From Rubritalea squalenifaciens DSM 18772 (GTDB lineage Bacteria > Verrucomicrobiota > Verrucomicrobiia > Verrucomicrobiales > Akkermansiaceae), in the NCBI RefSeq assembly GCF_900141815.1, contig NZ_FQYR01000002.1, forward strand, positions 1,031,091-1,095,090: DNA of 64,000 nucleotides, written 5' to 3'. The translations under genes and the position numbers were made by a program. A model generated the notes under the pieces. It saw only the letters and a program-made list of their open reading frames with translations, had not been told where the DNA came from and did not search any database. Shown one piece after another: positions 53,593 through 54,234 of the stretch. Positions within the stretch are counted from its first letter, which is position 1, and each line of letters opens with the position of its first letter.

Positions 53593-54234
53593 TTAATGGA
53601 GTAAGGCGTAGGCGAGAATGTTTGCGTTGACTCGGACCGAGTCATTAATTTCGTTCCCCCCTCAACAACAGCACCCCTCTGTGTTAGAGGTGTCATTGAG
53701 GCCATCCGATGAGTATACGACCACGAGTTTGTCGTTGTGGGTAATGCCGTGTAAGGTGGCAGTGCCACCATGGCTGAGCTTCATCGACTTGATCGTAAAG
53801 ATGGTTTTGAATAGGGCGTGATCCATCGGAATGTCTTTGAGAGCGTCTTTGTCGAAGATGCGCTTGATTTCACGCTCAAAGGCTGTGGCCCATGCTTTGT
53901 TAGAGCAGCCCGGGGAGGCGAGCAGGAAGCCACCATTCTCCAAGTATTTCTTCATGTTTTCCCTCTCCTTGCTGGTAAGGGTGAAATCACCCTCACCCGT
54001 CATGATGACGAAGGGGAACTTGAAGAGTTCTTCGGAGGAGAGCTTCACAGGCTTGAATCTGCGCTCAGTGGATACGGATGTCTTCTGCTGAACAGTTGTC
54101 AGGAATTCGTCACTGAAGCACTTGGATGTTTTGGTGCCTGCGTAGATCAGGTTGCCGCATTGTACGGCACCTTCTTTGGCTGTGGCGATGCCTAGGGACA
54201 TGACCAAGCTTGCTATGATTGCGGGTATTTTCAT
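53593..54234 (-). CDS. DUF4159 protein, probable selenoprotein (in-frame UGA)
   Basis: A predicted 213-residue exported protein. Signal peptide about 1-20. DUF4159 features include VIMTGEGDFTLT and ENGGFLLASPGCSN. A conventional reading stops at TGA 53662-53664 after 190 residues, TEGCCC. The frame then runs on as GGNEINDSVR then VNANILAYALLH to TAA 53593-53595. In DUF4159 relatives, as I recall them, a CCCCGGNEI-type C-terminus is usual, so the UGA would sit at the fourth Cys. A 17-nt hairpin with a GGUCC loop follows the UGA. UGA is an ordinary stop for other genes here and tRNA-Trp has anticodon CCA, so I infer selenocysteine at residue 191 rather than code change. C26, C39, C110 and C188-190 are the other cysteines. 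Function unknown; redox chemistry is likely. Confidence 0.85.
53628..53644 (-). promoter_or_regulatory. Candidate bacterial SECIS hairpin
   Basis: In the minus-strand mRNA UGACUC-GGUCC-GAGUCA forms a 6-bp stem with a 5-nt loop beginning GG. The stem starts 17 nt after the UGA and the loop G is at +24. The E. coli fdhF SelB-binding mini-helix is also 17 nt with a GGUC loop, at about +19. The palindrome lies inside the read-through coding region, which limits synonymous freedom. Confidence 0.8.
53662..53664 (-). other. In-frame UGA, proposed selenocysteine codon
   Basis: TGA after TGC TGT TGT in the DUF4159 gene, followed by 22 sense codons that encode a plausible family C-terminus. A recoded codon explains the sequence better than a true stop. 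Confidence 0.82.

Follow-up and report, generated by a model that had tools for sequence, protein, structure and literature searches.

The window, the whole 64,000-nucleotide stretch of Rubritalea squalenifaciens DSM 18772 DNA analysed here, carries on its minus strand an operon in the order MoxR-type AAA ATPase (62210-63193), DUF58 protein (61326-62207) and BatA/VWA protein (59274-61298), all three assigned by profile match, then a 730-aa VWA/glutamine-amidotransferase-like membrane protein (57079-59271), assigned from its own sequence only and with weak Filamin/MG2 matches, a 930-aa membrane protein with no Pfam match (54259-57051), a DUF4159 gene (53593-54234) and a gene whose product combines HEAT repeats, a thioredoxin-like CxxC region and a C-terminal DsbD/ArsG-like membrane part according to profile matches (49507-53553). 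The same neighbours were found at 17 of 17 loci examined, as far as each contig or stretch extends. The HEAT/Trx/DsbD-like protein is a 1348-aa fusion for which no name was found; its CxxC motif, CSQC in the window (50587-50598), is present in all homologues where it is readable and makes the protein a candidate redox partner of the DUF4159 protein. In Rubritalea profundi (L036) the corresponding open reading frame shows an apparent frame change just 5' of the CxxC, due either to a true frameshift or to a fault in the assembly; that this gene ends at a UGA within the CxxC was considered and rejected, as the motif reads CKQC and a frameshift seems to account for the break.

Under a standard gene call the DUF4159 open reading frame ends at a UGA after 190 codons (190 aa). 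Past this codon 191 (53662-53664), predicted to be read as selenocysteine (Sec), the frame continues in phase as GGNEINDSVRVNANILAYALLH and closes with TAA (53595-53593), the true stop of a candidate selenoprotein gene of 213 aa. With the UGA taken as a residue, the DUF4159 domain runs to its natural end (...GCCCUGGNEINDSVRVNANILAYALLH), and the Pfam profile (PF13709) matches across the UGA over residues 42-211, up to its last position, with a score of 105.5 bits (cut-off 25.9). Standard annotation would lose 23 C-terminal residues including the C-terminal helix, which the Sec reading restores. Residues 188-191 form a CCCU motif (53662-53673). At the other end of the protein a probable N-terminal signal peptide (MKIPAIIASLVMSLGIATAK; 54175-54234) was recognized by eye in the sequence. 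The AlphaFold2 model has a mean pLDDT of 81.4, with low confidence in the CCCU loop and in the putative signal peptide region, which is unstructured.

Homologues were collected from named genomes, a 387-genome sample of the phylum, 260 genomes of the family and 386 genomes of the order. Every stop-free homologue read has TGC or TGT as codon 191, and never a codon for another residue; in the main set, all 43 distinct downstream sequences of UGA-free homologues encode cysteine at this position. TGA occupies the codon in 12 distinct sequences, which belong to two families of the order. The surroundings are conserved as well, the motif, GCCCCGG in the Cys homologues, being invariant in a 16-sequence alignment and the 22 residues past the UGA being conserved among homologues. 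The pattern by which selenoproteins are recognized, a Sec/Cys pair among homologues flanked by conservation on both sides, is thus present at this codon.

Separated from the UGA by a spacer of exactly 17 nt (53661-53645), the mRNA contains the palindrome UGACUC-GGUCC-GAGUCA (53628-53644; plus strand TGACTCGGACCGAGTCA, minus strand, which is the gene's strand, TGACTCGGTCCGAGTCA), the putative upper stem-loop of a SECIS element with a stem of 6 bp around an apical GGUCC loop (53634-53638) or of 7 bp around GUC. Sequence, distance and coordinates had been given in the same way in a preliminary description of this DNA and agree on the minus strand. The model of the bacterial SECIS element calls for a loop of 3-9 nt, a stem of 4-16 bp, a G among the first two nucleotides of the loop, a spacing of 16-37 nt and a minimum free energy of -7.5 kcal/mol or below (PMC13188914). 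The DUF4159 hairpin shows all testable features of this model, with the loop starting 23 nt (GGUCC) or 24 nt (GUC) past the UGA, within the 16-37 nt window, and a fold energy of -8.5 kcal/mol (27 nt) to -9.0 kcal/mol (50 nt). An extended lower stem that appears in a 55-nt fold is not claimed, as the homologues do not share the same form. Rfam searches gave no match at the gathering threshold and nothing relevant in the region at E values up to 10, so that no curated Rfam family covers the hairpin.

On its own the palindrome is less telling than the preliminary description had assumed when it considered a chance origin unlikely. When the same 22 residues were encoded by randomly drawn synonymous codons, with loops of 3-9 nt permitted within the allowed window, a stem of at least 7 bp arose in 4.2% and one of at least 6 bp in 16.7% of draws, and a local fold of equal or greater stability in 2.0%. 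As the palindrome of the single sequence is only moderately improbable, the case rests on the relatives. The hairpin is found at the same position in 12 of 12 distinct UGA forms, while 42 of the 43 distinct Cys-form sequences of the main set show no base pair at its register, a distribution that places it far above chance. Across the 12 UGA forms 94.0% of pair cells hold standard pairs, compared with 10.7-48.8% after a shift of the partner strand by 1-3 columns. Two pairs have changed on both sides with compensation, pair 22-36 from GC to AU in four sequences and pair 24-34 from CG to UA in three, and the covariation score was reached by 0 of 500 shuffles; the check on stem covariation set beforehand has accordingly come out in favour of a stem that survives in UGA-bearing orthologues. 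The loop nucleotides G28 and U29 are invariant in all 12 UGA sequences. The hairpin of one UGA form (L079) has one mismatch, and several homologous hairpins are weak alone, with -5.2 to -6.4 kcal/mol, weaker than -7.5. A UGA form from another family of the order (L126), found after the hairpin had been defined, carries a perfect hairpin.

These comparisons bear first on the possibility of ordinary termination at the UGA, in which case the 190 aa would make up the whole protein, and the palindrome and open frame past the UGA would be left over from a formerly longer gene or due to chance. A 190-aa open reading frame with a normal UGA end does exist, and the probability of 4-17% for the palindrome in a single sequence leaves room for coincidence. 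However, the tail is open and conserved in all 12 distinct UGA sequences across two families, the UGA stands only where other homologues have a Cys codon, compensatory changes maintain the stem, and the last helix of the DUF4159 fold, as modelled, would go missing from the shorter protein. We regard termination at codon 191 as very improbable, even if it fares best among the alternatives to Sec insertion.

The genome provides what Sec decoding demands. A tRNA-Sec scores 50.8 bits, above the cut-off, and has the anticodon TCA according to ARAGORN; SelA (506.8 bits) and SelB (300.1 bits) are encoded, the latter with the SECIS-binding winged helix SelB-wing_3. Together with the compensated stem, this full machinery supports the proposal of the preliminary description that the hairpin is a SelB-type SECIS core. 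SelD is likewise present and is probably itself a selenoprotein, because its gene (L018 1480-2532; G000:C3:915184-916233) has an in-frame UGA (ASCGGU-ASK) followed by its own GGUUC-loop hairpin, CGCA-GGUUC-UGCG. The SelD genes of relatives show the loops GGUCU, AGUUU or AGUUC on continuous stems, a class summarized as RGUYY, to which the GGUCC loop belongs. An RGUYY loop common to the unrelated DUF4159 and SelD genes is what would be expected if one SelB reads both. The two elements share the continuous stem and the absence of a bulged U, but differ in that the SelD loop lies about 32 nt past the UGA (as counted in the sequences) and not 23, and in their unrelated stem sequences. One DUF4159 UGA form (L039) has the loop AGUUC instead of GGUCC, similar to the AGUUY loops of the clade's SelD genes. 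When the window was scanned, one of 103 UGA codons with an open frame on both sides was found to precede an RGUYY-loop hairpin, and this one is UGA 191; the loop class had already been seen in the DUF4159 and SelD genes prior to the scan. The search of the genome for FdhA revealed no UGA-containing formate dehydrogenase, and SelD and the DUF4159 gene are the only selenoprotein genes found by targeted searches.

The UGA form also travels with the Sec genes. SelA occurs in 11 of the 12 Sec-form genomes, with none found in the twelfth (G590), which is 86% complete, and in 0 of 18 Cys-form genomes tested from the same family, R. profundi being counted separately. SelA does occur in three Cys-form genomes, namely those of R. 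profundi (G558) from the genus of the window and of two members of other families (G615 and G621), the latter two without the hairpin. Four further genomes of the genus (G557, G561, G563 and G564) contain SelA and a Sec-type SelD and gave no match to the DUF4159 protein, so the Sec trait persists in the absence of this protein.

Hairpins past stop codons can stimulate read-through, which opens the alternative that the UGA is read by near-cognate Trp or Cys decoding or by a suppressor tRNA and that the hairpin is a generic stimulator. Against such an explanation stand the complete Sec system and Sec-type SelD of the genome, the restriction of the UGA form within the family to genomes with SelA, save the one incomplete genome, and the Cys of the homologues at this codon, as expected for Sec. 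Its probability appears slighter still than that of an ordinary stop.

The preliminary description had likened the hairpin to the SECIS element of E. coli fdhF. Both are situated directly 3' of an in-frame UGA, have a small G-G-U loop and are accompanied by the Sec machinery, and the G-U equivalents of G23/U24, which SelB contacts in fdhF, are present in the GGUCC loop, so that this part of the comparison holds. The distance does not agree, as the spacer amounts to 11 nt in fdhF (PMC8659212) and to 17 nt here. The DUF4159 loop also closes differently, as GGUCC/GUC, and its stem is continuous whereas fdhF has a bulged U17 on the 5' side, which is needed in E. coli (PMC8659212). As the bulged U17 is absent, E. 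coli SelB itself may be unable to read the DUF4159 hairpin.

When the UGA codon and the codons of the hairpin are left out, the protein tree requires two changes of the Sec/Cys labels. As Cys forms lie all around on the tree, the simplest history that the sequences suggest is that Sec was gained once, from a Cys ancestor, and that R. profundi later went back to Cys. The gene of R. profundi has TGC at codon 191 and is nested in the Sec clade beside the gene of the window; it is the sole Cys form of 43 with a hairpin remnant, which has one A-C mismatch, and its genome retains SelA and a Sec-type SelD. By its sequence and placement R. profundi is a recent Sec-to-Cys reversal in a genome still decoding Sec. 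Remnants of SECIS elements after reversal of Sec to Cys have been reported earlier (PMC1794560). With a single Sec gain for the 12 UGA forms, the association of hairpin and UGA is confounded with common descent everywhere but in R. profundi.

This one origin, and the coincidence of the palindrome with codons of a clade-conserved peptide, would also be compatible with a hairpin that is merely the by-product of coding SVRV or of a lineage-specific codon habit, without a role as RNA. The peptide, however, arrives together with the UGA, since the Cys forms mostly encode SMEI, SLEV or similar where the UGA forms have SVRV. The codons used are moreover rare ones, since in nine open reading frames of the window TCG accounts for 4% of the codons for Ser and CGA for 7% of those for Arg; inside the hairpin TCG is present in 11 of 12 UGA forms and CGA likewise in 11 of 12. 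Both double-sided changes preserve the pairs, and a loop of the same type follows the UGA of the unrelated SelD gene. A coding by-product seems to us about as improbable as read-through by other means. That the palindrome, a perfect inverted repeat close to the 3' end of the gene, serves as a transcription terminator or operator site is the least probable reading, as it lies within the coding frame, covaries as RNA and tracks the UGA and not the operon, which is conserved in the hairpin-free Cys forms, and as a terminator it is rejected because a U-run 3' of the hairpin is absent.

Cumulatively, Sec insertion at UGA 191 is strongly supported by the comparison of sequences, and we assign a probability of about 0.94 to the reading that the hairpin is the putative SelB-binding core of a bacterial SECIS element which directs Sec to codon 191 of the DUF4159 mRNA. 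With the ribosome at UGA 191, SelB with GTP and Sec-tRNA-Sec would dock on the hairpin, its C-terminal winged helix touching the G and U in the RGUYY loop, and selenocysteine would be delivered in place of termination. The hairpin would then be unfolded by the ribosome and translated as DSVRV, and the last C-terminal helix would be completed. The product would be an exported DUF4159 protein with a Cys-Cys-Cys-Sec cluster that would pass electrons to or from the CxxC of the neighbouring HEAT/Trx/DsbD-like protein. SelB binding, the actual insertion of Sec and export are predictions from the elements described, and for the redox partnership between the CCCU cluster and the CxxC we would give even odds.

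With respect to novelty, DUF4159/PF13709 is not among the 119 prokaryotic selenoprotein families of the 2026 inventory, no NCBIfam family matches the protein, and DUF4159 receives no mention in the literature searched, a body that excludes subscription papers and supplements. The product of the UGA-containing gene hence seems to be a selenoprotein whose family is absent from the current list, and the DUF4159 protein of Rubritalea is probably a new bearer of a known mechanism and the representative of a new selenoprotein family. Hoch_4089 (PDB 4i66) shares the DUF4159 domain and fold (phmmer E 1.6e-9; Foldseek TM 0.68 to the model) but has no CCCC/CCCU cysteine cluster at the corresponding place; ThuA-like and glutamine-amidotransferase-like proteins resemble the model more loosely, and a match to the WD-40 protein 2ymu, confined to residues 81-128, was discounted as evidence on the DUF4159 protein. 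Sec adjoins Cys also in other selenoproteins with CU motifs, for example KCU-star and the MerB-like SaoL, from which the present protein differs by its other domain and by four consecutive chalcogen residues (CCCU) followed by GG.

Selenocysteine usually marks a catalytic redox residue, which suggests that the operon has its working site in the CCCC/CCCU cluster. The function of the DUF4159 protein is probably thiol/selenol redox chemistry in the envelope. More tentatively, and with somewhat less than even confidence, we propose that DUF4159-CCCU is an unlisted selenoprotein family whose CCCU is the redox or metal site in an exported envelope machine of the MoxR/BatA/VWA kind, which would draw its electrons from a dedicated donor of Trx-DsbD type.

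With this finding the prokaryotic selenoproteome gains a domain family that is apparently not yet listed, and the gene provides a clean example of Sec gained once from Cys and recently reversed once, with the SECIS remnant still legible. The operon with the CCCC/CCCU cluster is conserved, widespread in the Verrucomicrobiota genomes searched and so far without a function; if the proposal is true, selenocysteine would be tied to a widespread uncharacterised bacterial operon.
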